Shown one piece after another: positions 1,135 through 26,390 of a stretch of 27,008 nt of DNA. Every line of letters starts with the position of its first letter. Position 1 is the stretch's first letter. The DNA comes from a virus, in IMG/VR virus record IMGVR_UViG_3300017917_000847, positions 1 through 27,008 of that record. One strand, written 5' to 3'. The translations under genes were made by a program, and so were the position numbers. The notes beneath the pieces are model-generated. The model did no database searches, was not told the origin of the DNA, and saw only the letters and a program-made list of their open reading frames with translations.

Positions 1135-4100
1135 TTATTCTGGGCTATCACTATCTAGATCATCGTTTAGATCTTCATCGATTCTTTGCAGTTTTAGGGC
1201 TTGCTCAAAAGGAGTTAAATCTTCACCAACGCCTGGGGGACTTATTGGCCCAGCATCATAGTCTGTTATCAGTCCTTTGATAGAAGGCCATGTAGAATCA
1301 GTACCTAACGAGATAAACACACAGCCATCTGCTCCGTTGCCCGAATAGGTTCCCGATGCCCCTGCGCCACCACCGCCATACTTTCCGCCATGGCCGTTTG
1401 AACTATAAGAACCAGTGGTTCCGTTAGACGTTTGTATAGTGTCGCCGTACGTTGAGATTCTTACCTTCCAATTAAACGACTGATGTAAGTATGCAGGTCC
1501 TGACTGCTCTATAAGTAGTCGACTATCCGAAACAGTAGTAGTTAGAGTAGGTTCTACTACTGGGCCATAAAAAAATAAAAAGTTTGCGTCTGAGTTAAAG
1601 CGGGACAGCGCCGAGTTTAAATCTCCATCTACTCCAGAATAGAATCCATTTCTCAGTCTAGGATAGAAATAATTTGGATTTCTCCCGGCCGCATATATTT
1701 CAACTTGACTCGGTGAAAAATGTCCAATAGTTGATGTTATGTCAAAGTCTGTAATGGTTCCTATGTTGTCATTTAATTCTACTGAAAATGTAGCACCTGT
1801 GCCTGTTCCATACACTGATATAGCAACTGGTTTACTGACCAATTGTCCATCTCCATTCATGCTATACATACCTCTACCGATTTTAGTAACCTCTACAGCT
1901 TCAACAGCACCGGTGTCTTCATTAATCTGTGTACAACGCACAGCCGGCCAGTTCCACCATTCTGCATTGTAAATTTTTACAGTTCCTTGTGTGATACCTG
2001 TAAAGTATCCTCTTGCTTTGTTTAAAAGATCTCCGTACAATCTAATATTGTCTTTGTCAACTACATCAACAAAGAAATAAGAAGTGTAGGTTTGTCTTCT
2101 ATAACCATTGCCATAGTAACCGCTATTCATTGCGCTGTTTGGTTGTTGAGCAGTTCCCCAGTCTGTTGCTCCGGTTGGTTTTAGAGTAGCAATATCTACA
2201 TATGCATACGTAGTAACGCCAAAGCTACCATATCCTGCAACTGGGTGTCCTGAGAAATTATAAAAACTAGAAGTTACCATGACGCTTACATTATCTTCGT
2301 CAAATATGTTCATACCTACAAGTTCTCCGCCAACGTATCCGTGATCTACAATATGTAAACCGTAACGATAAGGTTGAAGGCTACTCGGAGTATATCCAGC
2401 ATCAGTAACGTCGGCAGAAGTGACCCTATACATTCTAGGAGGTCTAATAGCAACTATAGGAGCCGGAGAGTAATCTGCTCCACCTGATGTGATAGTAATG
2501 GATTTGATACCATCTTCTTGTAAGAGAATAGTTCCATCGTGTGCTCGGCCAGCACCAGAATATATTGATGCTGGCATTTTAAGTATTCCTGTAATCTGAC
2601 CCGAAGCTCCCACTGATGTGACTTTTATGATTAAATTGTTTACCTTGCTGTAACCGCCTAGATCTTTACCTGGAATAGTAATATAGTCGTCAAATGCATA
2701 TCCAGTTCCAGCCGATGAACCTATGTCTACTGTATATGTAGTTCCGGTTTTAGTCACATTAAATAGAGCGCCTGTTCCGTTTACGCTAGTAGTTGTACCA
2801 CTTCTATCTAGGTAGACTCTACTAGTAACAGGGGCATTAATACCAGCAGTTATGCCGAGCAAGCTCTTAGCACCACCGGTGCCAAACTGTGGAGGTGTTG
2901 AATAATAACTTCCGCCTAGTGAATAGCCAACAGAGGAATACCAATTAAGTGTATTATTAAACATAGTGCTAGTATCATTAAACTTAGCAATACCTGTTCC
3001 GCCACCGCCACCACCTCTATTTGACCCATGGAGACCCCCATTGGCTCCATACATTGTTCCAGGTAGAGCTTTCTGACTGTATATGCTACTTCTTGCTAGG
3101 CTTAATGGATAGTTTGATGCGCCTGATCCGCCTTCACCTCTATACAATATTTCCCTGCTATCAGAAAGCACTCGTGTAGTGTTTAATGAGCCAGTTCCGC
3201 TTTCCCATAATTTGTTGGCATAATCATATATATTCTGAGGAGTCCTCTCAAAACCGTATGAGCCAGCGCCGCCACCACCTCCAGAGTAGCTCCAACTAGT
3301 CCAGCTGTTTGCGTATGCATTCCAGTCGATGCCACCAGCGCCGCCATCTCCACCGAACACGTTTTCAAACTTTAAATCCCATGAGATACCCCATGTTCTG
3401 TCATAAGCATATAGATTACCAAGAAAGTATAGAGGATTATTGACAATAAGATTAATACCGTAGTAATTTATACTATTGTCTTCTACCTTAAACAAGAAAT
3501 CATAAGTTTGTCTATTAACGTCCCCAGTATTTGCAGATAAATCAACTGCTGGACCTATTGGGTTGTACGTCCCTGGGTTATTGGTCCAAATATGTTGTTC
3601 GCCGTCAAAGCTCGGGTCGTCTAATTTATCAAGAGGTATATTTTCTCTTCTTTTTAAGAAGTTAGCACTCCAACCTGGAATAGTAGCGGCATAGTGCTGT
3701 AGTTTGATCCAATCTCCGCTAACTTGATGGACAAAATACAAGTCATTTTCGTACAGATCGTCACTGGCGTTTTTAAAAGTCCATATGTCGTGTTCTTCAT
3801 TATATCCGGGGAAATACCAAGCTCCCGATCTATACATCACAACATCACCGTTTTTAAGAGTATGTCCTGGCAGATAGATACTATTATTAACAGCATCTAC
3901 ATCTCCACTCATTGATTCAGTAACACCATCGTATCTCTGATTGACAAACTTATATGTTGATAAATTGCTACCTCGGCCGCCGGCTGCAAATGGTCCTCCG
4001 TTTCTACCTCGTTTGCCACCACCACCAACTAATACAGGTACTCCTGATCTAGTTACAATAGAGTCTCCACCTGTAGTGCCATGACCTGTAACTGTTGCTC

Positions 4101-5898
4101 CAGCACCGCCTGCGCCAACAGTAATATAAAATATTTCATTAGGTCTTACATCTATATTCTTTTTCCAACGTAGGCCGCCTCCGCCACCACCCCCTGCTCT
4201 AGTACCCGAAGCACCACCTCCACCTCCACCTATACACAATGCATTTAACTTAGTTACTCCCGCAGGAATACGTAGTTTATACCTACCAGGAGTTTGATAA
4301 TACAGCTGAGTGACCTGGCCTCCTGACGAACTCTCGCTTGGCGGAACAGTACCTACTATGTTAGCTGTTGATGTTATTGGACCGTCTAACATACGAGGCA
4401 AGCTAACTAGAAGTTCTTGTATGTTGTATGATTTAATAATACCGGCATTACCGCCAAACTGGCTTCTATTATTAGTATAATCGTTATCAACCCCACTAGT
4501 ATACATTAGTTGTGTTCTTTGAGAGTTGACCCAATTATATACTTCCACAACTGAAGAGGCCGGTTTAGCTTGTAGATACAACGCTATCATGCCTGCTACT
4601 TGAGGCGCTGCCATACTAGTTCCAGAAATATTAGTTTGTCTAAATCTTCCATCGGCGTAGTAAGGTGCAGATCCGCCCATTTGATCAGAATTAGAGCAAG
4701 CACTCATAACATAATGGCCGGCTGCAAATATTTCAACACCGGGACCGGCATTGCTAAAAGTTGCCTTTCGTTCGACGCCCGCACCGTTAGTAGAATAATC
4801 TAAACATCCCACGTTAATGGTGCCGTCGGTGTAAGGACTCATTCCTCGGTGATAATAGTATCGATCATACCCATCATTAAAATAGTTATCGTAGTCAACA
4901 CCGCCGGGAGCATCAATCTTTGCATTTGCATTACCTGCCGCGGTAACAACTATAATTCCTTCGTCTAACATTTCTTGAACGTTAATGTCTACGGATGCTA
5001 CACGAATACTTAATGAATTTCCAGTTACACCGTGGCTAGAGTTTAGAGTAGATATAGATTGTCCTCTATAGTTTCCCGATAAATTTGGATATCCGCCCCA
5101 TGCGTACCCCCAACTCATATTAACAACGGTTGGACGCTTTACACCTGTAGCTGGATTAATAGGTTTATTTCTGTGCCATAATTTGACCAAGTCAAAACAT
5201 TCATTCATGTCAAACCCGTACGGGCTTAGACCTGCTACGGGCATTACATATATACGTGCATTCTTGGCCCACCCGTACGTCTTTCCGGCCATAATGCCAC
5301 CTACGTGAGTTCCATGACCGTAGGTGTCAGTGTATACTCCAGACGATTGTGATTTACCAGAAATGCCGGCCGCCTCATACCAGTTGATTAACTGTACGCG
5401 AGAGTTGCCGCCTTCGTCTGTAAACTCTGGATGATCTACTTGTAATCCCGTGTCGTGGACAACTACGTCAACACCGCTACCGTCTAACAAGTAGGTATAT
5501 GACTCAGTAGTAGACATCGAGTCTCCGTAGGCGTTAGGAGATATCGAATGTCTTATTAGTCCCCAGTTTAAATTATTCCCAGACTTACTTTCTGTTTTAG
5601 TAAAGTTTCCAAATTGAGTTGTACGCAGTCCAATTTTTAAGTTTGGTCTCTTGTATGCAGGTATTTCTACAACCTCAACTTGGGGATGCTGTCTTAATTT
5701 CTCAGCTTGAGCGTCAGTCATGTTGTAATGACATAAGCGATAGCTACCAAATCTTTCGTCAGCTATTGATAATGCTTCATCTGGTATATGTTCTATACCT
5801 TCAGATTCTCGTTCTATCTGTGCCCAAATAGAATCGTAAACGCTCGGATCGTCGCTTTTTTTAAGACCGACTACATATTCTTTATATTCGTCTTGCAT
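1135..5898 (-). CDS. Giant tail fibre/adhesin with N-terminal subtilisin-like (S8) protease domain
   Basis: This 1587-aa protein fuses a peptidase to a fibre. Residues 1-85 resemble a subtilisin propeptide. Residues about 135-460 carry a complete S8 triad: Asp149 in VHDTG, His195 in YGHGTHVGG and Ser428 in GTSMAAPQVAG, with the oxyanion Asn323 in AAGN. After about residue 535 come the glycine-rich blocks typical of marine phage fibres (an IPAGV segment, then G-runs, then VGAGGAG), repeated several times, with a final GGGGAGASG block near the C-terminus. A beta-module near residues 1040-1105 is shared with the protein at 9600-10646. No export signal is visible, as expected for a virion protein. 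The ATG lies 7 bases after the stop of the upstream fibre gene and has only a weak Shine-Dalgarno, so translation is probably coupled. The protease could cleave host surface proteins or mature the fibre, and the sequence does not decide which. Confidence 0.85.
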   Translation of the reverse strand: MQDEYKEYVVGLKKSDDPSVYDSIWAQIERESEGIEHIPDEALSIADERFGSYRLCHYNMTDAQAEKLRQHPQVEVVEIPAYKRPNLKIGLRTTQFGNFTKTESKSGNNLNWGLIRHSISPNAYGDSMSTTESYTYLLDGSGVDVVVHDTGLQVDHPEFTDEGGNSRVQLINWYEAAGISGKSQSSGVYTDTYGHGTHVGGIMAGKTYGWAKNARIYVMPVAGLSPYGFDMNECFDLVKLWHRNKPINPATGVKRPTVVNMSWGYAWGGYPNLSGNYRGQSISTLNSSHGVTGNSLSIRVASVDINVQEMLDEGIIVVTAAGNANAKIDAPGGVDYDNYFNDGYDRYYYHRGMSPYTDGTINVGCLDYSTNGAGVERKATFSNAGPGVEIFAAGHYVMSACSNSDQMGGSAPYYADGRFRQTNISGTSMAAPQVAGMIALYLQAKPASSVVEVYNWVNSQRTQLMYTSGVDNDYTNNRSQFGGNAGIIKSYNIQELLVSLPRMLDGPITSTANIVGTVPPSESSSGGQVTQLYYQTPGRYKLRIPAGVTKLNALCIGGGGGGASGTRAGGGGGGGLRWKKNIDVRPNEIFYITVGAGGAGATVTGHGTTGGDSIVTRSGVPVLVGGGGKRGRNGGPFAAGGRGSNLSTYKFVNQRYDGVTESMSGDVDAVNNSIYLPGHTLKNGDVVMYRSGAWYFPGYNEEHDIWTFKNASDDLYENDLYFVHQVSGDWIKLQHYAATIPGWSANFLKRRENIPLDKLDDPSFDGEQHIWTNNPGTYNPIGPAVDLSANTGDVNRQTYDFLFKVEDNSINYYGINLIVNNPLYFLGNLYAYDRTWGISWDLKFENVFGGDGGAGGIDWNAYANSWTSWSYSGGGGGAGSYGFERTPQNIYDYANKLWESGTGSLNTTRVLSDSREILYRGEGGSGASNYPLSLARSSIYSQKALPGTMYGANGGLHGSNRGGGGGGTGIAKFNDTSTMFNNTLNWYSSVGYSLGGSYYSTPPQFGTGGAKSLLGITAGINAPVTSRVYLDRSGTTTSVNGTGALFNVTKTGTTYTVDIGSSAGTGYAFDDYITIPGKDLGGYSKVNNLIIKVTSVGASGQITGILKMPASIYSGAGRAHDGTILLQEDGIKSITITSGGADYSPAPIVAIRPPRMYRVTSADVTDAGYTPSSLQPYRYGLHIVDHGYVGGELVGMNIFDEDNVSVMVTSSFYNFSGHPVAGYGSFGVTTYAYVDIATLKPTGATDWGTAQQPNSAMNSGYYGNGYRRQTYTSYFFVDVVDKDNIRLYGDLLNKARGYFTGITQGTVKIYNAEWWNWPAVRCTQINEDTGAVEAVEVTKIGRGMYSMNGDGQLVSKPVAISVYGTGTGATFSVELNDNIGTITDFDITSTIGHFSPSQVEIYAAGRNPNYFYPRLRNGFYSGVDGDLNSALSRFNSDANFLFFYGPVVEPTLTTTVSDSRLLIEQSGPAYLHQSFNWKVRISTYGDTIQTSNGTTGSYSSNGHGGKYGGGGAGASGTYSGNGADGCVFISLGTDSTWPSIKGLITDYDAGPISPPGVGEDLTPFEQALKLQRIDEDLNDDLDSDSPE

Positions 5899-7152: not shown

Positions 7153-8610
7153 TTATTCTGAATTGTCACCTAAGTTATTTAAGAACTGACGTAGTTTAGT
7201 CGAGTCTGTTTGTGCCCTAACTTTAGGTATAGCTACACCCTGGGTTGGGTCTGTCATTATTTCGCCGGTGCTAGAATCCACTGTTGTTCCGCCACTAGGT
7301 GCTTGTGCCTTGCGTTTGATATCATCTAGGATAGCACTAGATTTTGGACGGTATTCTTCGCCTTGTCCATCCTCTCCAGCGTCTGTAATACGAAGAGTAT
7401 CTACATCAAACTCTAGGTCAATTTTCATACCCACACCGGAACTACTACGAGTTTTCATCAGCTGGATCTGATACTTACCACGCTCACGCATTGCACGGCT
7501 TGTAAAGATACCAAACACGTTATCAGCAGTTTGAATCTTAGATAAGCCACCTGAAATATGACTGTGATCAAACTCAACTTCTTCAACAGCGCCACGATTC
7601 AACTGCGCCGCTGTCACGCATACACAGTTCTTTTCCATGGCTAAGTTACGCATTTCTTCCGACACATACTTGTCTTTAACAAACAAGTTTTCCGCGGAAA
7701 TCTTACGGCTCAAAGGCATTAGCAAGTCCATATAGTCTACTAATAAGATGTCAATTTTCTTGCCCATCTTGATCTCGTACTCTTTCATGTAAGCACGAAT
7801 GTCGTTACAAGTCTTACCACTTGGCATGTATTTGATCTGCATTGCACCGGACTTTTTGCCGATCATTTTAACTTTCATTTCAACGTTGTCGAGATCCTTA
7901 AAGATGTCGCGAGTTGTAATGCCAGTGGTCATTGAGTCAATACGCATAGACACTAACGGCTCAGAAAGTTCCAGTGTTAGATAAACTACGTTCAATCCAG
8001 CGAGTGCAAAATTTACGCCTAAGTTAGCCAAGAATAAGGATTTACCCGCACCAGATCCGCCAGCAAAGATATTAAGTTCGCCTCTGTTGAATCCGCCAAA
8101 CAATCGCTTATCTACTGTATCCCAACCAGTCTTAACTTGTCCGTTTTTATCTTTAAGCCCGACCAATCGACCTTTGGGATCAGCAAAGTAATCAGTACCC
8201 ATATCCTTTTGTAGACCTACTTGTACTGCTTTCTTAATCAGTTCTTCAACTGGACCATAGTCACCTTTTTCCAGCATGTCTGCTGACTCAAGGATGGCCT
8301 TTTCTAATCCTTTGTGTTTGATAAATGTTTCAAACTCAGTTAGCAACCAATCATAATGTTCGTCTTGCAAACGTCCGGGATTTTTAAATTCGACATGCGT
8401 TGCAGCCGCCACCATTTCATATGTAGGTAGTGCATTATGTTCAGTTACATAATTGTTGACAAACTCTGCAGGTGCTTGCAGTTTACGATCAAACAACGAA
8501 GCGTCAAAGATGCTTTGACAGCGAACAAATGTGCTGGCATCGCTCAGCATCATTTCTAGATATAACTTCTGAATGTCGTAGCCGTAGTCTGTATTTTGTC
8601 TTGTTGTCAT
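7153..8610 (-). CDS. 41: Replicative DNA helicase, T4 gp41 / DnaB family
   Basis: This is the hexameric 5'-3' replicative helicase that unwinds the fork and works with the primase encoded just upstream. At 485 aa it is close to T4 gp41 (475 aa). The N-terminal part (about 1-140) is helical, as in DnaB-type proteins. The RecA-like motor follows: Walker A GGSGAGKS at 184-191, ELS near 214, Walker B ILLVDYMDLL near 288-297, and a downstream AAQLNR motif (sensor-like, H3 region). The C-terminal tail after about 410 is polar and probably flexible. The start lies 4 bases after the primase stop and has no strong Shine-Dalgarno, so translation is likely coupled to primase. No terminator separates it from the fibre genes other than their own late promoter. 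Confidence 0.95.
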   Translation of the reverse strand: MTTRQNTDYGYDIQKLYLEMMLSDASTFVRCQSIFDASLFDRKLQAPAEFVNNYVTEHNALPTYEMVAAATHVEFKNPGRLQDEHYDWLLTEFETFIKHKGLEKAILESADMLEKGDYGPVEELIKKAVQVGLQKDMGTDYFADPKGRLVGLKDKNGQVKTGWDTVDKRLFGGFNRGELNIFAGGSGAGKSLFLANLGVNFALAGLNVVYLTLELSEPLVSMRIDSMTTGITTRDIFKDLDNVEMKVKMIGKKSGAMQIKYMPSGKTCNDIRAYMKEYEIKMGKKIDILLVDYMDLLMPLSRKISAENLFVKDKYVSEEMRNLAMEKNCVCVTAAQLNRGAVEEVEFDHSHISGGLSKIQTADNVFGIFTSRAMRERGKYQIQLMKTRSSSGVGMKIDLEFDVDTLRITDAGEDGQGEEYRPKSSAILDDIKRKAQAPSGGTTVDSSTGEIMTDPTQGVAIPKVRAQTDSTKLRQFLNNLGDNSE

Positions 8611-8614
8611 ATAA

Positions 8615-9589
8615 TTATATTATCCCATCGAACCATTTTTTGGCTCTTAGTTTGATTTTTAATTCTGTTGTTTCCACAGACTGCATGATCAAATAGGCAG
8701 TCCATAAATTTCCATAGGTGCGTATAGCATCGTTACAATCTTTAACTCCGTCAGTCCATTCGGGCATACTAACTGACCAACCTAGTTCTATAGCACGTTC
8801 CACTGTGCGAAAGCCGTCATAATCTCTATCTGGTACTACAACGACCTTCTTGCCTATGCGATTGATCAGCATGGCCTGCTTGTCCATAATGTCTGCGCCC
8901 AGTATAGCAACACCACCAACTGACAGAGCATCCAATGGTCCTTCTACTACAATTACCACTGGCTTGTCATTGTTTTGTGCATCTAAGTTAAACACATAAC
9001 CGGGTGTCTGTTCGCTTAGATACTTAGGCTTGCCGTCTGTAATCTTACGACCAGTATAACCTACAATTCGCCCTTCGTAACGGAAAGGTATGATCAGTCT
9101 GTCTGGTAATTCTGGGCTCCACATCCAATCGCCCCTAATGTCAAAGCCTCGGGTTAGTATATAGTCTGCTACACCGATAACTGCTTCGGGATCAGACATT
9201 AGTGCTTGTTCAAGTGTTTGACAGTCTCTAGGTAATTCTTTATCGGGCAATGTAGGTAAACTAACTGCTTCTAGTTCTTTTTGGTCAGCTTCGACCTTTA
9301 GAGCTTCCAAACTAATCTTATTGATAGCATCGTCTGGAGCACCTAGCCATTCTAACAACTGCTTCATTTTGCGTGTTAAATGGCGCCCGGCTTGATAACT
9401 GGCTTTGAATCCACAGTTAAAGCAATGATAGCTAACACCGTCTCCATTTCGAATAATACCACCGCGCTGGCGTGTGTCAGGAGTGTTTCCATTATGTGGG
9501 CAACAAACTGCGTTGAACTTGGTCCAACCACTTGGAGTGTTCTTGCGTTTTGCCGGTAGGTACGAATAGATTGTGTCGACTATACTCAT
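8615..9589 (-). CDS. 61: DNA primase, T4 gp61-like
   Basis: This enzyme makes RNA primers for lagging-strand synthesis in complex with gp41. Near the N-terminus a zinc-binding set is visible (Cys and His in CCPHNG, then CFNC about 25 residues later). The catalytic core is a TOPRIM fold: VVIVVEGPLDALS with its Glu near residue 216, and VVVVPDRDYDG with the DxD near 254-256. I chose the ATG at 9589 over a TTG one codon earlier, which gives 324 aa. This start codon lies in the loop of a perfect 7-bp hairpin and has no clear Shine-Dalgarno, and the upstream gene stops about 10 bases earlier. The gene is followed immediately by helicase gene 41, forming a primosome pair. Confidence 0.93.
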   Translation of the reverse strand: MSIVDTIYSYLPAKRKNTPSGWTKFNAVCCPHNGNTPDTRQRGGIIRNGDGVSYHCFNCGFKASYQAGRHLTRKMKQLLEWLGAPDDAINKISLEALKVEADQKELEAVSLPTLPDKELPRDCQTLEQALMSDPEAVIGVADYILTRGFDIRGDWMWSPELPDRLIIPFRYEGRIVGYTGRKITDGKPKYLSEQTPGYVFNLDAQNNDKPVVIVVEGPLDALSVGGVAILGADIMDKQAMLINRIGKKVVVVPDRDYDGFRTVERAIELGWSVSMPEWTDGVKDCNDAIRTYGNLWTAYLIMQSVETTELKIKLRAKKWFDGII

Positions 9590-9599
9590 CAAGTATAGT
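9579..9599 (-). promoter_or_regulatory. Hairpin presenting the primase start codon in its loop
   Basis: ACTATAC (9579-9585) and GTATAGT (9593-9599) are perfect inverted arms around a 7-base loop. Read leftward the loop is TTGATGA, so it contains the ATG of gene 61. As RNA this could expose or mask the initiation codon. As DNA it would be a symmetrical operator. The stem is AT-rich and only 7 bp, so its stability is modest. Confidence 0.5.
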
Positions 9600-10646
9600 T
9601 TAACTTCTTACGATTATTTTGTCAACAGTCTTGAACGAATTAATCTTGTTTGCGGGCACATTTCTAAAATACCCAGTGCCAGTGCCAGTACCTGCCCAAG
9701 TAATACCGGTGATAGTATTGAGGCTACCTAGCGGATATGTATTGACGTTTTCAACAGTAATAACCAAATCGTTAACGCCATCGTCTCCGCCCAATTGGCT
9801 ACCTAGAATACGCAATTGGTCTCCGATTCGATAATCTTGTCCGCGAATGATAACACTGACCAATTCATATACACCATTGTTTAATATGATGTTGAATGTT
9901 GCTCCGAATCCAGGGCCGCCGCCGTCGTGAATAAAGCGAACAAAGCGATAGTCTACATTGTTATAGGTCTTTGTTGGATTGTCAACTTCCAAATCCCAAC
10001 TTTCTAATCTGACCCATTTATTACCAAATGCTGTATTTTTATCTTTTGTAACTTCTACGTGTACAATACCAATAAAATCCCCAACCAATTCAACAGTCAT
10101 GTCTCTAGTAGGAGAATCGTTAATGCCAGATCCAATTTGTAGAATTTCACTAGTGTATGCGTGTTGATCTGCTTCGTAGTTAAAACAAATTGCTTCGTCT
10201 TGATATGTTGGTACTGTATTGTAACCATCTAAAATCTGGCAAGTGGCAGCTAGTCCAAATTGACTATCACTATATAGGATAGATTCAGCTTCTGTATTAA
10301 TGTTAACTAATTTAGCAACAATGCTTAATTCTTGCGGACTAATGTCCTCTATTGCTGTAGCAGGCACAACTACTTCCATCATACCAGGCATACTCATAAT
10401 AGCGTTGCCAGTAACACTAGCTAGTTCTTTTCTAGTAGAATCAAGGAACTGTACTACAATCTGCGATCCTACTACGTTTTGTCGTTGTTGGTCAGCAGAC
10501 CTAACTTCGAACTGAAGAGTATTATCGATACCCTTGTATAATTTGATTGTACGTTGATACACTTTTCTAAACTCCGTTGTAAATCCTGCCATATCTGTCG
10601 TGACTGTGATTCTATTTGGAACTAAATAAAATTGAATTTTTTGCAT
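9600..10646 (-). CDS. Probable virion structural protein (348 aa)
   Basis: I recognise this only as a type of protein seen in marine T4-like phages, and its exact position in the particle is unknown. It is beta-rich and has no catalytic motif. Near residues 250-315 it carries a module with the pattern FN..., YRIGDQLRILGSQLGG, NDLVITV and ITGI. The same pattern occurs in the protease-fibre at 1135-5898, so a fibre, baseplate or tail role is likely. I chose the ATG at 10646 (MQKIQFYL) over an upstream GTG at 10661. A T4-type late promoter (10681-10688) lies just upstream and supports late, structural expression. It is the gene before primase and would be co-transcribed with genes 61 and 41 late in infection. 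Confidence 0.65.
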   Translation of the reverse strand: MQKIQFYLVPNRITVTTDMAGFTTEFRKVYQRTIKLYKGIDNTLQFEVRSADQQRQNVVGSQIVVQFLDSTRKELASVTGNAIMSMPGMMEVVVPATAIEDISPQELSIVAKLVNINTEAESILYSDSQFGLAATCQILDGYNTVPTYQDEAICFNYEADQHAYTSEILQIGSGINDSPTRDMTVELVGDFIGIVHVEVTKDKNTAFGNKWVRLESWDLEVDNPTKTYNNVDYRFVRFIHDGGGPGFGATFNIILNNGVYELVSVIIRGQDYRIGDQLRILGSQLGGDDGVNDLVITVENVNTYPLGSLNTITGITWAGTGTGTGYFRNVPANKINSFKTVDKIIVRS

Positions 10647-10680
10647 TGGACTAATTTTCACTTATATGAAGGTCATACAG

Positions 10681-10688
10681 TATTTATG
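10681..10688 (-). promoter_or_regulatory. T4-type late promoter (CATAAATA)
   Basis: Leftward CATAAATACTG matches the late consensus TATAAATA in seven of eight positions. The predicted +1 near 10675 leaves a leader of about 28 bases before the ATG at 10646. The element overlaps the ATG (10686-10688) of the rightward 124-aa gene, so late transcription here begins inside the neighbouring gene's start site and could interfere with it. Confidence 0.7.
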
Positions 10689-11060
10689 GTAAAGTTAACG
10701 GAAGAGATCAGAGAAAACTTCCCTTTTATTTCAGTTGTTCACTATGGTGGTGTAGAATACGTGGGGGTCGTAATCAACCAGGATCAATACGTAACTAGTA
10801 TCTATAACTATGAAGAACTACGATCTGAAGAGGAGCGCAAGCACTTTTTAGAGCTCGGCGAAGTATGGTGGTGGGAGTCAAATCGTAGCATTCCTATTAG
10901 CATTTTCTTAAAACAAGAAATGGAACAATATCGCTACACTATTATGACCATGAATACTAAGGATGTTAATGTAGTATTTGGTCCTACAATTAATTTACAC
11001 AATATGGCAATCAAGCGTGTCAAACGCAAAATGATCCAACTAGTTAAACCTAGACGTTAA
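10686..11060 (+). CDS. Conserved-looking hypothetical protein (124 aa), isolated rightward gene
   Basis: I do not recognise a function. The protein begins MVKLTEEIRENFPF. Its first half has beta-strand character with many aromatic residues, including WWW near residue 61-63, and its C-terminus is strongly basic (KRVKRKMIQLVKPRR), which suggests nucleic-acid contact. The upstream in-frame TTG at 10632 is an unlikely start because it lies inside the opposing gene. The ATG at 10686 has no well-placed Shine-Dalgarno, and its AAGG is about 13 bases away. It is the only rightward gene between 300 and 27008, divergent from the structural gene and convergent with the mini-polymerase gene, with which it shares the palindrome TTAA as overlapping stop codons. 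No rightward promoter or terminator was convincing. Confidence 0.65.
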   Translation: MVKLTEEIRENFPFISVVHYGGVEYVGVVINQDQYVTSIYNYEELRSEEERKHFLELGEVWWWESNRSIPISIFLKQEMEQYRYTIMTMNTKDVNVVFGPTINLHNMAIKRVKRKMIQLVKPRR

Positions 11061-11635
11061 CTTCCGCCTTCACTTAGGTTTTCGCAAATTAAATTCATCT
11101 GCACAACGATTGCCATAGCGTATGCAATGGCGTGTGCCTTCTTAAAGTAGTATTCGTCAGTAGTCGGTTTTGTCCACACTTCCGTCATAATCGTCGTCCA
11201 ATCCTTCCCAATCAAATGCCTCTTTGCTGGGCGGATCATAGCGAGGACCGCACCTAATTGTTCCACGGAAGTAGGGCAAGTCTTCTTCAGTACCTCCCCA
11301 TGCCCGTTCAAATGAAATAACAGATTCACAAACTCGTCTTGTAATAGTAAATCCCATAGCGGTTCTTGCTCCATTAAAAATTTAAGATGTTCTTCGTTTT
11401 TTATTTGGTTATAAACGCTGACATTTAAAAAATCAATCTTAAAATAGCCTCGGTCTTCTGCTGACTTGTAATCTATTGTTGATAGATTTGTTCTGACATC
11501 TTTAGGAATGTCTGTAACATATATACCAGTATTGTGAGGCTTCACTTCTCCATGATCGTCACGACTTGCAACTGTGTGTTCAAACAGTTTTAGTGCAAGT
11601 GTCCTGTCAGCAAAGTCAATATCAATATCAGGCAT
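11057..11635 (-). CDS. Miniature DNA polymerase III alpha (DnaE/PolC, family C)-like protein
   Basis: In 192 aa this protein carries the signature blocks of the bacterial replicase core in the right order. These are PDIDIDF at residues 2-8 (E. coli Asp401/Asp403), HNTGIYV at 34-40 (like KHAGGVV), FKIDFL at 65-70 (Asp555), FHLNGHGEVLKK with AMIRPA to about residue 137 (like FQLESRG...ALFRPGP), and FKKAHAIAYA at 164-173 (like FNKSHSAAYA). All three catalytic-aspartate equivalents are present. The PHP domain, most of the fingers, the beta-binding, HhH and OB parts are absent. The start is the ATG at 11635, which overlaps the 62-aa gene by 8 bases. A longer reading from 11707 would run through that gene. 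It ends the ten-gene leftward array. Whether it is an active polymerase, a primer-handling enzyme or a regulatory relic cannot be told. Confidence 0.75.
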   Translation of the reverse strand: MPDIDIDFADRTLALKLFEHTVASRDDHGEVKPHNTGIYVTDIPKDVRTNLSTIDYKSAEDRGYFKIDFLNVSVYNQIKNEEHLKFLMEQEPLWDLLLQDEFVNLLFHLNGHGEVLKKTCPTSVEQLGAVLAMIRPAKRHLIGKDWTTIMTEVWTKPTTDEYYFKKAHAIAYAMAIVVQMNLICENLSEGGS

Positions 11636-11816
11636 CTTTACCGTCCCATGTTGCAATCTTCTTCCATTGTAGCGGACCTTCTGTAAGATACGGCACGTAA
11701 ACTTCACCAGTCTCTTTGTCTGCTAACATCCATTTCTCTGGACATTTTGTTACTATTGTCAATACAACTGGCTCTTTTAACTCTTTAGCTTTTGTACCGT
11801 CTTTCAGTTTCCTCAT
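11628..11816 (-). CDS. Small hypothetical protein (62 aa)
   Basis: I do not recognise this protein. It is basic at the N-terminus, followed by a short beta-like core (VVLTIV, then a GEVYVPYL segment) and a C-terminal WKKI. Its size and pattern suggest a single small domain, possibly an SH3- or OB-like barrel, but that is a guess. The ATG overlaps the stop of the zinc-finger gene as ATGA, and its own stop overlaps the start of the mini-DnaE gene by 8 bases. It is therefore translationally coupled to both and may act with the DnaE-like protein. Confidence 0.65.
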   Translation of the reverse strand: MRKLKDGTKAKELKEPVVLTIVTKCPEKWMLADKETGEVYVPYLTEGPLQWKKIATWDGKDA

Positions 11817-13011: not shown

Positions 13012-13255
13012 TGTCGTCTTTTATTGTGTTATATATTAGTATAGCACGATCCAAAACTTTTTGCAAGGCGGGGTTGCTCTTTCCAGCATAGACAATGTCT
13101 TGCCAAAGTTGAGTTTCGATTAAGTCGTATTGTTGTGGCCGGTTTGGCATGTGATATCCTACTAGTGTTCGTTCATCGTTGCCAACTTCTCGAGCATAAA
13201 TTCGATTGTCGGCACGTTCATATACATAGGTTGCGCCTGGTTTAAGTAGTCCCAT
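13004..13255 (-). CDS. Small conserved-looking hypothetical protein (83 aa)
   Basis: I do not recognise a function. The protein begins MGLLKPGATYVYERADN, has a short beta-like N-terminal half and a helical C-terminal half rich in charged residues. I chose the ATG at 13255 over a longer reading from 13336, because the extra 27 residues are hydrophobic and lie entirely inside the upstream oxygenase gene. A GGAA Shine-Dalgarno lies 4 bases upstream. The start overlaps the oxygenase-like gene by 14 bases and the stop overlaps the next gene by 8 bases, so it belongs to the coupled array. Confidence 0.65.
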   Translation of the reverse strand: MGLLKPGATYVYERADNRIYAREVGNDERTLVGYHMPNRPQQYDLIETQLWQDIVYAGKSNPALQKVLDRAILIYNTIKDDNE

Positions 13256-13847
13256 TTGATTCCAGTATAGTTGTATTAAAGGCAATAGATATTCTAGATT
13301 GATTGTGCAAATTAGACCCAACTGAATGGGGAACATATCCGGGCCACATTATCAATGTACCCTCTGTAGGTATTATACCAAGGGCTTCATTTGTGAACTG
13401 ATTTCTTTCTTTTACTATGCCCAGACCTTCCCACAGTTGATTCATTCCGGGATTTATTAAGTTTAATTGACCACTACCTTCTGGCACTTGTAGATAAAAT
13501 ATTCCAGAGATAACGCCTGCGTGTATGTGTTGAAAATTAATACAAGCAGATGAATCGTTAACATTGATCCATGCTGCCGAAATCCCAATATTACTATCTA
13601 GCCCGATAGAATTAGCTGCCAATCTAGATCTGTTTAGAATGAAATCAAATAACGGATTAAATGATTCAATGCTGTGTATTGTAGGCTGACTTTGCCAGCC
13701 GTAAAGATTTGACCTACTAACTCCTTCGGGGTCTTTAGCTCGACAGTTCTTTACTTCCTCAATGAATTTAGATTGATAAACTTGAAAGTTTGGCATATCT
13801 TCATTCCATACAGGAATAGTAAACAACGGAACTGGTGCAAGTTTCAT
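13242..13847 (-). CDS. Putative 2-oxoglutarate/Fe(II)-dependent oxygenase
   Basis: The protein (201 aa) has the pattern of the phage-rich 2OG-Fe(II) oxygenase family with a jelly-roll fold. The likely metal ligands are His107 and His109 in FQHIHAG and a distal His174 in YVPHSVG. Arg185 in RISIAFN would hold 2-oxoglutarate, and SGIFYLQVPEGSGQL is the characteristic strand between. The usual HxD is HxH here, as in relatives of this type. The substrate is unknown, and such enzymes hydroxylate proteins, nucleic-acid bases or small molecules. The start overlaps the upstream gene as ATGA. A second member of the family lies two genes upstream (14366-14995), and the two differ strongly in sequence, so this is not a recent duplication. 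Confidence 0.72.
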   Translation of the reverse strand: MKLAPVPLFTIPVWNEDMPNFQVYQSKFIEEVKNCRAKDPEGVSRSNLYGWQSQPTIHSIESFNPLFDFILNRSRLAANSIGLDSNIGISAAWINVNDSSACINFQHIHAGVISGIFYLQVPEGSGQLNLINPGMNQLWEGLGIVKERNQFTNEALGIIPTEGTLIMWPGYVPHSVGSNLHNQSRISIAFNTTILESNGTT

Positions 13848-14365: not shown

Positions 14366-14995
14366 TTATTGTTGTTCTTTTGGAACTAGTATGGTATCAA
14401 AGGCCATAACAGTTCTAGTGCCGGTACCTTTCCACGGGTAAACAGTATGTGGTAAATGACTTGGGAATAAAATTACAGTTCCGTCTTTAGGAGTGTATTT
14501 CCAAGTGTCGTTCATTATAAATTTACTAACATCTTTAGTGTGAGGCAGTCTAAATAAAATTTGACTGTCGCTAGGTTGACTACCAGGTGCTAACTCTGGT
14601 GTTCTAATATAAATGTTGCCGCTGAGATGTCCGCCTGGATGACTGTGCATTTCTTGATAGTCACCGGCTTCTTGTCTAATAGTCCATATGCTTGTAACTA
14701 CTGGCTTGCAAAGTTTCATTTCTTCAGCACCGCTTTGTGCTGATATCAGTTCTAAGTATCCTTGGCAAATGCTTTCAATCCAATTAGTTAACCAGCTAAC
14801 GTCTAGTCCTAATTGATTAGGATACACTTGTATTTGCTGTCCTCCTCTAATGCTTAGTAGTGGATTATTAGAATCATTTAGATCGGATCGAGAATGCAGA
14901 GCTTCTGTTAGATTAAAGATTTGACTAAACTGTACTGCTGGAACATCGTCAATGGCAAACACCATAGGCTGAAAGTAGGCTACTCTTAATGTCAT
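14366..14995 (-). CDS. Putative 2-oxoglutarate/Fe(II)-dependent oxygenase
   Basis: This 209-aa member of the same broad oxygenase family has its likely ligands at His117 and His119 in MHSHPGGHLSGN and His183 in HLPHTVYPW, with Arg194 in TRTVMAFD for 2-oxoglutarate. The GTVILFPS strand before the distal His is typical. I chose the ATG at 14995 (MTLRVAYF), which has AGGAAAAAT directly upstream, over an ATG at 15016 that would overlap the uvsW gene. It lies 8 bases after uvsW. Such genes are common in marine T4-like phages, but their substrates are mostly unknown. A role in modifying DNA, host protein or virion protein cannot be chosen here. Confidence 0.75.
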   Translation of the reverse strand: MTLRVAYFQPMVFAIDDVPAVQFSQIFNLTEALHSRSDLNDSNNPLLSIRGGQQIQVYPNQLGLDVSWLTNWIESICQGYLELISAQSGAEEMKLCKPVVTSIWTIRQEAGDYQEMHSHPGGHLSGNIYIRTPELAPGSQPSDSQILFRLPHTKDVSKFIMNDTWKYTPKDGTVILFPSHLPHTVYPWKGTGTRTVMAFDTILVPKEQQ

Positions 14996-15003
14996 ATTTT
15001 TCC

Positions 15004-16476
15004 TTATTTTTCCCAAGTTACTTTTTCAATAGTAAATGGATATTTTGCTTCTTTATAGAATTTTTTACGTTCTGTTAAATGTCTCTTGGCATATTTTGCT
15101 GTGCTTGTGACGTCCCAGATTTGTACGAAGTCTTTATCTTCCGCTTTTCTAATACCCCGTCCAATAGATTGGATAACGCGAACAAAGCTCTTTCCGGGTT
15201 CCAGAAGCACCAAATTGAAGATCCTAGGAATATTAAGACCCACAGCGGCCACACCGTAAGTTGCCACAATAACCTTATTAGTACTTGTTTTAATTTCGTC
15301 ATATTCTTCTTTTCTTTCTGCTAGTTTAACTTCGCCTGATATAAAGATTGAATCAGGTATTGAAGCCGCTAGATGTCTACCTGCATCTAGTCTATCTACT
15401 AGTATAAGTGTGTTACCGGATTCTTTAATTGACGAACATACTTTACTAATATAATCCATTCTGTCTTTATCAGACACTAGGTATTTTAATTCTTCTTGAT
15501 AGCTTCTAAATTCTTTAACGTCAATCATTTGTAAAATGTTAACGTGACATTGGCTCAACACCCCTCGCTCTTGAAGAGTGTGTGCTGATATGCGATTAAC
15601 AACCGGACCTAATGTTGCTAGGATGCTGTGGAAGTTAATATCTTCCTTTGGCACAGTACCAGTTAATCCCCAACGAATAGGAGCATTGGCTAAGTTTTGA
15701 CTTAATAGGTTCTTTAGAACATCGGCTTTGGCCATGTGTACTTCGTCGACGATTACGCATACAACGCCGTCTAATAATTCTGCCAATGTTAATATTTCTT
15801 CGTCTGTAACGTCTTTAGATTTCTTGTCAAGTATGTTTAAACTTTGCCAAGTACAGATAGTATGTGTCTTGTTTAGGTCTTTTCTATCGCCAAAATATAC
15901 GCCCGCATCTAGTCCTACATTAAGATAATCTTCTTCTGTTTGTACAACAAGACCTTTGTTAGGTACAATGACTAATGTTCGTCCATATGGCTCACAAAGT
16001 GCAGAAAGTGTGGCAGTAATAATTGTTTTACCAGCACCTGTTGCTAGTTCTTGGAGGCCTTGTAGGTTCTCCATAAAGTTATTAATTGCGTCTAATTGAT
16101 AATCACGTAGAACAATTGGCTCACCTGCTTTAGGATGACCTTCTGGCCATGTCTTGCCTTGGTCCGCCCAGTATTGGTCTGTAATCTTTTGGAATTGAAA
16201 ATTATGAGTTTGTCTTTGGTCGTCAATTTCTGCAACATCAACACCACACTCTTCTATCACAGCTAGAATAACATCGAGGTGATTCAAATATCCATTTCCG
16301 CCTAGGCCAAAAAATGTCGTGGTGCCATCCCATCTGCCTAATTTGTATTGAGGCATATGACGAGCATAAGGTAATTCAAATTTTAACTTGTTAGAAATCT
16401 TTCGACGGACTTCTACTGCAAGACCCTCGATTTTTATGTTTACTTCGTCTCTAATTACGATTTTACAACTGGGCAA
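15004..16476 (-). CDS. uvsW: UvsW-type SF2 helicase
   Basis: This ATP-dependent helicase remodels recombination intermediates and stalled forks and unwinds R-loops, in T4 switching origin-dependent to recombination-dependent replication. The length of 490 aa fits (T4 UvsW 503 aa). The N-terminal domain (about 1-115) includes a GRWDG motif like T4 UvsW. Motor motifs follow: LRDYQ (Q-like, 123-127), ATGAGKT (Walker A, 145-151), DEVH (244-247), GLTGT (motif III, near 274) and QSIGRGIRK (motif VI, near 445). It starts with TTG at 16476 behind an AGGAG Shine-Dalgarno 9 bases upstream and overlaps the 415-aa gene by 14 bases. A rare start codon inside an overlap suggests reduced, coupled translation. 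It probably shares the promoter at 17717-17744. Confidence 0.93.
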   Translation of the reverse strand: MPSCKIVIRDEVNIKIEGLAVEVRRKISNKLKFELPYARHMPQYKLGRWDGTTTFFGLGGNGYLNHLDVILAVIEECGVDVAEIDDQRQTHNFQFQKITDQYWADQGKTWPEGHPKAGEPIVLRDYQLDAINNFMENLQGLQELATGAGKTIITATLSALCEPYGRTLVIVPNKGLVVQTEEDYLNVGLDAGVYFGDRKDLNKTHTICTWQSLNILDKKSKDVTDEEILTLAELLDGVVCVIVDEVHMAKADVLKNLLSQNLANAPIRWGLTGTVPKEDINFHSILATLGPVVNRISAHTLQERGVLSQCHVNILQMIDVKEFRSYQEELKYLVSDKDRMDYISKVCSSIKESGNTLILVDRLDAGRHLAASIPDSIFISGEVKLAERKEEYDEIKTSTNKVIVATYGVAAVGLNIPRIFNLVLLEPGKSFVRVIQSIGRGIRKAEDKDFVQIWDVTSTAKYAKRHLTERKKFYKEAKYPFTIEKVTWEK

Positions 16477-25958: not shown

Positions 25959-26390
25959 TCACTTGCCCGTATGGAAAATATCATTTTCGGAGATAACTCT
26001 AAAGAACACGTTTTGTTGTTTACACCATGCTCTGGCTGCTTCCCACTTTGCCATATTTAATACTGCGTGGGCTTGGGCATGTTTACTACGTCCTGCTTCA
26101 CGTAGACTTGTTTGTTTTAAAGGTTTAACTTCAATTACTTCGGCGTGCATCTTGCCGTTCTTATCAACATAGTTAATAAAGAAGTCTGGTACATATACTG
26201 TTTGTTTACCAGTAAACGGGTTACGATAAGGTATTTTAATGCTTTCACTGGCCCAGTTAGTTACTGCTGGATTGTTATCGCAGAATGTCATAAAAGCATA
26301 TTCCCAGCTTGATCTATAACTAGGAGTTCCTATCCCAATATACTTTGCTGGGTTCTTTGGTTGGAACTTGCCGTGGGCAAACTTACTCAT
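25959..26390 (-). CDS. 4: Head-completion protein, T4 gp4-like, nuclease fold
   Basis: gp4 acts after DNA packaging to finish heads before tail joining. The 143-aa length fits (T4 gp4 150 aa). The N-terminal YRSSWEYAFM segment with Glu30, then VPDFFI with Asp69, then EVIEVKP with Glu87 and Lys89, together form a complete PD-(D/E)xK set like that of TnsA-type endonucleases. This suggests trimming of DNA ends. The start overlaps the upstream gene as ATGA. It is followed by gp16. The nuclease activity is inferred from the motif only. Confidence 0.82.
   Translation of the reverse strand: MSKFAHGKFQPKNPAKYIGIGTPSYRSSWEYAFMTFCDNNPAVTNWASESIKIPYRNPFTGKQTVYVPDFFINYVDKNGKMHAEVIEVKPLKQTSLREAGRSKHAQAHAVLNMAKWEAARAWCKQQNVFFRVISENDIFHTGK

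Follow-up and report, generated by a model that had tools for sequence, protein, structure and literature searches.

The polymerase gene and its surroundings

The window, meaning the whole 27,008-nt stretch of viral DNA that was analysed (IMG/VR record IMGVR_UViG_3300017917_000847, positions 1 to 27,008), carries on its minus strand an open reading frame (ORF) that runs from 11635 down to 11057 with zero internal stops. Sequence comparison places its product as the C-terminal half (hereafter C half) of a split minimal family C polymerase. A longer GTG-start frame of the same ORF extends to 11707. The features considered below are as follows, with residues of E. coli Pol III alpha given for comparison.

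7153..8610, minus strand: DnaB/gp41-type replicative helicase
8615..9592, minus strand: DNA primase (gp61/DnaG type), from Pfam/PHROG-type searches
10632..11060, plus strand: convergent ORF at the 3' end of the polymerase half, PHROG 11637, function unknown
11057..11635, minus strand: C half of the split minimal polymerase (family C, Pol III alpha-like), 192 aa with ATG start
11132..11134, minus strand: H168 of FKKAHAIAYA, matching E. coli FNKSHSAAYA
11228..11233, minus strand: RP of AMIRPA (R135-P136), the finger motif that reads ALFRPG in E. coli
11432..11434, minus strand: codon D68 in FKIDFL, equivalent to E. coli catalytic D555
11525..11536, minus strand: HNTG block (H34-G37), like E. coli HAGG 511-514
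11615..11629, minus strand: DIDID, codons D3-D7, with D3 and D5 equivalent to E. coli catalytic D401 and D403
11628..11816, minus strand: upstream 62-aa ORF, matching the C-terminal end of PHROG 4098, function unknown
15004..16476, minus strand: UvsW-type helicase

Around the polymerase half lies a T4-type replication set that comprises primase, gp41-like helicase, UvsW, UvsY, UvsX and a gp32-like protein, with a large terminase gene farther along in the window; through its gp32-like SSB, UvsW and gp41, the window has the T4-type replication set of group 2 phages. The original prediction, made from the bare sequence, had the polymerase gene overlapping its neighbours in one operon. This holds upstream, where the 62-aa ORF shares 8 nt (11628-11635) with the polymerase half, but not downstream, where the ORF at 10632-11060 is on the opposite strand, convergent, and so outside that operon. 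In the phages examined, too, the C half is repeatedly followed, at once or almost at once, by an ORF on the other strand.

Elsewhere on the minus strand, the gene at 1135-5898 encodes a 1587-aa protein with a subtilase (Peptidase_S8) domain at residues 140-458 (E 1.9e-25), together with a glycine-rich domain and tail PHROG matches, and is a protease within a probable tail or fibre protein. Two separate 2OG-Fe(II) oxygenases (PF13759), at 13242-13847 and 14366-15016 on the minus strand and less than 2 kb apart, sit between UvsW and the polymerase half. Upstream of structural genes, the minus-strand gene at 25959-26390 encodes a 143-aa protein with a TnsA-like endonuclease N-terminal domain (PF08722, E 2e-22).

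Family C identity and truncation of the C half

As a single-sequence query, the window protein matched no Pfam family and no PDB chain, so its relation to family C is visible only through PHROG and profile searches. It matched PHROG 11778 ('DNA polymerase') at E 1.5e-65, and PHROG 405, a full-length family C group of 1190 positions, at E 1.2e-5 over positions 576-678. When a profile of 39 relatives was compared with the PDB, only Pol III alpha chains rose above background, with blocks in order, as in 5lew (E 0.0013) at 413-425, 567-664 and 773-788. The original prediction had read five family C blocks into the 192-aa ORF, with Asp at each position of the E. coli catalytic triad D401/D403/D555, and had proposed a profile search. 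All five blocks are present, the search returned family C (PHROG 11778, PHROG 405 and Pol III alpha PDB chains), and Asp occupies all three positions: D68 falls on E. coli DnaE D555 by hhalign, and the opening DIDID is the counterpart of D401, D403 and D405. The HNTG block was left unpinned by the sequence-profile alignments, though it is spanned by the structural alignment. At the level of sequence, we regard the family C homology of the window protein as real and confirmed.

Conservation is concentrated on the active site. Across the 39 aligned relatives, whose identity goes down to 33%, the invariant residues are D3, D5, D7, H34, G37, K66, D68, R135, P136, K138, H168 and Y172, and the catalytic Asp triad is kept in 159 of 159 IMG/VR metagenomic loci, a count that is partly circular since the regular expression used for C-half loci demanded DxDxD, H..G and IRP; D68 lies outside every retrieval pattern. 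Seven C loci missed by the regular expression and read separately have all the Asp, and two of them have S at G37. The median dN/dS of the C half is 0.17 (745 pairs). Relatives do not lose the Asp, and the purifying selection among them agrees with the original view that the gene is not debris.

The protein begins at PDIDID and is without the GxGRGS triphosphate-binding motif. PHP, OB and tau-binding domains gave no Pfam match in the window protein or in 38 relatives, and 192 aa leave no room for them. The spacing from DIDID to HxxG is 26 residues, versus about 105 in E. coli, where the thumb lies between these blocks, so that most of this stretch is gone, including the thumb. The sole Pfam match among C halves was the Pol III finger domain (8 of 39 relatives), and the structural model of the C half aligns up to E. 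coli residue 784. The proposal that PHP, finger, clamp-binding and OB parts had all been removed is therefore right for PHP, clamp-binding and OB, which are absent, but overstated for the fingers, which were not wholly removed.

A second gene for the other half

A search with the Pfam Pol III alpha family turned up, in all 12 reference phages, a second small ORF (about 175 aa) elsewhere in the genome that resembles the Pol III region immediately ahead of PDIDID, and GxGRGS was present in each of these 12 profile-found proteins. The N halves measure about 170-200 aa, contain GxGRGS and, with few exceptions, have an EF[LF] motif close to their C terminus; their retrieval partly used GRGSS, which makes the corresponding counts partly circular, whereas the 12 found by the Pfam profile all have GxGRGS. 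PF07733 was matched by 51 of 51 aligned N halves, and PHROG 11127 by N halves of relatives (up to E 3.1e-85). The triphosphate-binding motif missing from the window protein thus sits on a separate N half in its relatives, and the picture of a self-contained 192-aa palm remnant gives way to one of a palm divided between two genes. No N half was found in the window, which is a 27-kb fragment and hence uninformative on this point.

The N half aligned to E. coli 319-395, with its last residue at N393, and the C half starts at 399-400; on this alignment, the division of the palm falls after the triphosphate-binding loop and before the first catalytic strand, and about six residues have been lost there. 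The cut is sharply kept: of 80 N halves, 73 have exactly 35 residues between GxGRG and the C terminus; of 157 C halves, 142 have two residues ahead of DIDID; and both proteins break off where the conserved core does, with hardly any added residues, which gave little reason to suspect a split intein behind the division. No fused N+C ORF occurred in 236 loci. The dN/dS of the N half (0.51 over its full length, 0.36 in the core) is unreliable, with most pairs saturated. The first ~75 residues of the N half are strongly variable and have no counterpart in Pol III alpha (for example in L187:4770-5306, where the alignment runs from model residue 74); they are perhaps a phage-specific binding part.

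Structure models agree with this assignment. AlphaFold2, run on alignments of window and IMG/VR rows only, gave mean pLDDT values of 86 for the C half and 90 for the N half, and family C polymerases filled the top 14 rows for each half model. By VIA-align, the C model aligned over its whole length with E. coli 399-784 or equivalents in 14 family C entries (Z 5.3-8.3; non-family-C entries at most 3.8), and residues 74-179 of the N model with E. coli 279-395 or equivalents in 14 family C entries (Z 7.5-11.8; others at most 2.5). Foldseek was weak for the single halves (E 0.06 for the C half, 0.014 for the N half). In the C model, mean pLDDT falls to 65 over residues 1-10, which include DIDID; besides the C terminus, the DIDID strand is its least certain part. 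This would fit a strand modelled without its partner, and equally a poor model. From sequence comparison, then, both proteins are halves of one family C core.

The two halves travel together. Of 50,697 phage records, 63 contain the C half by tblastn. Most of these come from jumbo phages of the RaK2, 121Q, GAP32, PA5oct, Atu_ph07, SCTP-2 and XacN1 kinds, and two from 141-kb Alishewanella phages. Over the matched part, the Phosso and Atu_ph07 proteins share about 53% identity with the window protein. A single N-half tblastn query found 60 records, and further search added Slicko01 and Slickus01, so that the N half is present in 62 of the 63 C-half records (the exception being PP728206, 109 kb). 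Among metagenome contigs of at least 200 kb, which may be incomplete, 6 of the 7 with a C half also have an N half, and 7 of the 8 with an N half also have a C half. Records matching only the N-half query were weak matches, where annotated mostly DNA polymerase (III alpha) from 77-120 kb phages. In relatives, the halves lie 11 kb to more than 200 kb apart. Alishewanella phage Slicko01, at 141 kb under the 200-kb jumbo limit, has both halves ~11 kb apart (L008, L015).

Placement is also regular. The C half adjoins primase and a gp41-type helicase in 10 of 12 phages (XacN1 and RAS14 differ), and a clamp-loader-type AAA gene lies a few genes downstream of the N half in five of five, as annotated in three, by PHROG 168 search in Phosso, and by AAA annotation only in PAC2. 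According to annotation, a GroES/gp31-like gene sits between the N half and the AAA gene in four of these five phages. In all three phages searched, which are of different genera, the gene immediately after the N half is a small one of PHROG 14844 (L329:4567-5028, L332:4566-4940, L333:4599-5051), and its product is a candidate partner subunit. As the original prediction expected of T4-like phages, a family B polymerase was found in 12 of 12 reference phages, as well as in 10 of 10 related contigs.

Known split polymerases and the likely role of the pair

A second, family C palm in such phages had been called unexpected, but a split minimal Pol III is already known: by genome comparison, Iyer et al. 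2021 (PMC7824862) described one in 'group 2.2' jumbo phages, in which widely separated genes encode an N part that binds NTP and a C part that binds Mg2+ and template, and which also have a family B polymerase. Compared with that account, the window gene is a stand-alone C part with the metal-binding Asp and the template-binding region, an orthologue with no difference in kind, and Atu_ph07, in which we found both halves, is a member of group 2.2 according to the same text. With the window gene, an uncultivated contig supplies a further orthologue. Added here are the exact split point, the broad conservation, and the consistent placement beside the clamp loader (N half) and the primase-helicase (C half), the last of which we did not find in the consulted passages of Iyer et al. 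2021 (PMC7824862). Pol III subunits are listed in the genome papers of Atu_ph07 and AP-J-162 as well. A 2026 review of jumbo phages leaves polymerase III unmentioned. PHROG 11778 (C half) and PHROG 11127 (N half) are both labelled only 'DNA polymerase', with the halves unstated. The split polymerase B with an intein reported in the MIJ3 paper is a different gene. Outside subscription papers and preprints, no laboratory test of the split polymerase was found in the literature.

Relative to bacterial DnaE/PolC, the pair is alike in block order, catalytic Asp, GxGRGS and finger motifs, but consists of two polypeptides of ~370 aa in total, where E. coli alpha has 1160, and neither half was found to have PHP, thumb, clamp-binding, OB or tau-binding parts. 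The DnaE of other phages (e.g., Pseudomonas phage nickie, 112 kb) is family C by annotation; such records match the N-half query only, and weakly, with no C-half match at E 1e-3.

We consider it probable that the C protein is a subunit of an active two-subunit minimal family C polymerase, working as a second fork polymerase beside the family B replicase. Heterodimer formation and polymerase activity are what we infer from the divided core. A gene elsewhere in the phage genome would encode the N subunit, whose GxGRGS loop would hold the incoming triphosphate; the C subunit would bring the metal-binding Asp triad and a reduced finger module, and the halves would associate without a peptide bond into one Pol-beta-type nucleotidyltransferase palm that extends primers. 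At the phage fork, such a split enzyme would probably act as a low-processivity second polymerase next to the family B replicase. That no thumb, clamp-binding or OB part for holding DNA was found, and that Foldseek scored the single halves weakly, counts against it. Its most plausible task would be primer extension or gap filling, a role that we offer as speculation, indeed as a guess, from the placement of the genes. The further idea that the working pair extends primase products at the fork and then hands over to the family B replicase, in the manner of eukaryotic Pol alpha and Pol delta, is possible but doubtful.

Alternatively, the halves could bind each other without polymerising and form a structural or regulatory part of the replisome, for example a bridge from clamp loader to primase-helicase. 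The absence of a thumb and clamp-binding part, the family B polymerase already in the phage, and the encoding of the halves beside clamp loader and primase-helicase genes would all suit such a complex, but the metal-binding Asp and GxGRGS are invariant down to 33% identity and a purely structural role needs neither, which makes it unlikely. That the 192-aa C protein alone is a tiny polymerase or nucleotidyltransferase is very improbable: it does hold the three metal-binding Asp, but it is without the triphosphate-binding loop and part of the palm, and the same genomes keep an N half that supplies precisely what it lacks. A decoy or inhibitor of host Pol III, floated in the original prediction for the host replisome and since left without support, would draw on the likeness to host alpha, yet this likeness is very low in sequence (none in the single-sequence search against the PDB), catalytic residues and both halves are kept, and the protein is conserved within the phage replication cluster across diverse hosts, so that we find this reading scarcely credible. 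A functionless, decaying remnant of an acquired dnaE, for which the big missing parts of Pol III alpha might speak, is already contradicted by the open frame, a dN/dS of ~0.17, the invariant active-site residues, and a position conserved across many phage genera with hundreds of copies of the C half in IMG/VR, and we give it next to no weight.

Returning to the active pair that we favour, because the cut falls exactly between GRGS and DIDID, mixing two small proteins would put the idea to a direct test. If the handover to the family B replicase were true, the pair would be the smallest family C polymerase known to us and a model of the ancestral catalytic core, the idea of an ancestral state coming from Iyer et al. 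2021 (PMC7824862). An active pair, being a naturally split family C polymerase of ~370 aa beside the 1160 aa of E. coli alpha, would show what a replicase core needs, and would mean that a whole branch of large T4-type phages runs two kinds of DNA polymerase.
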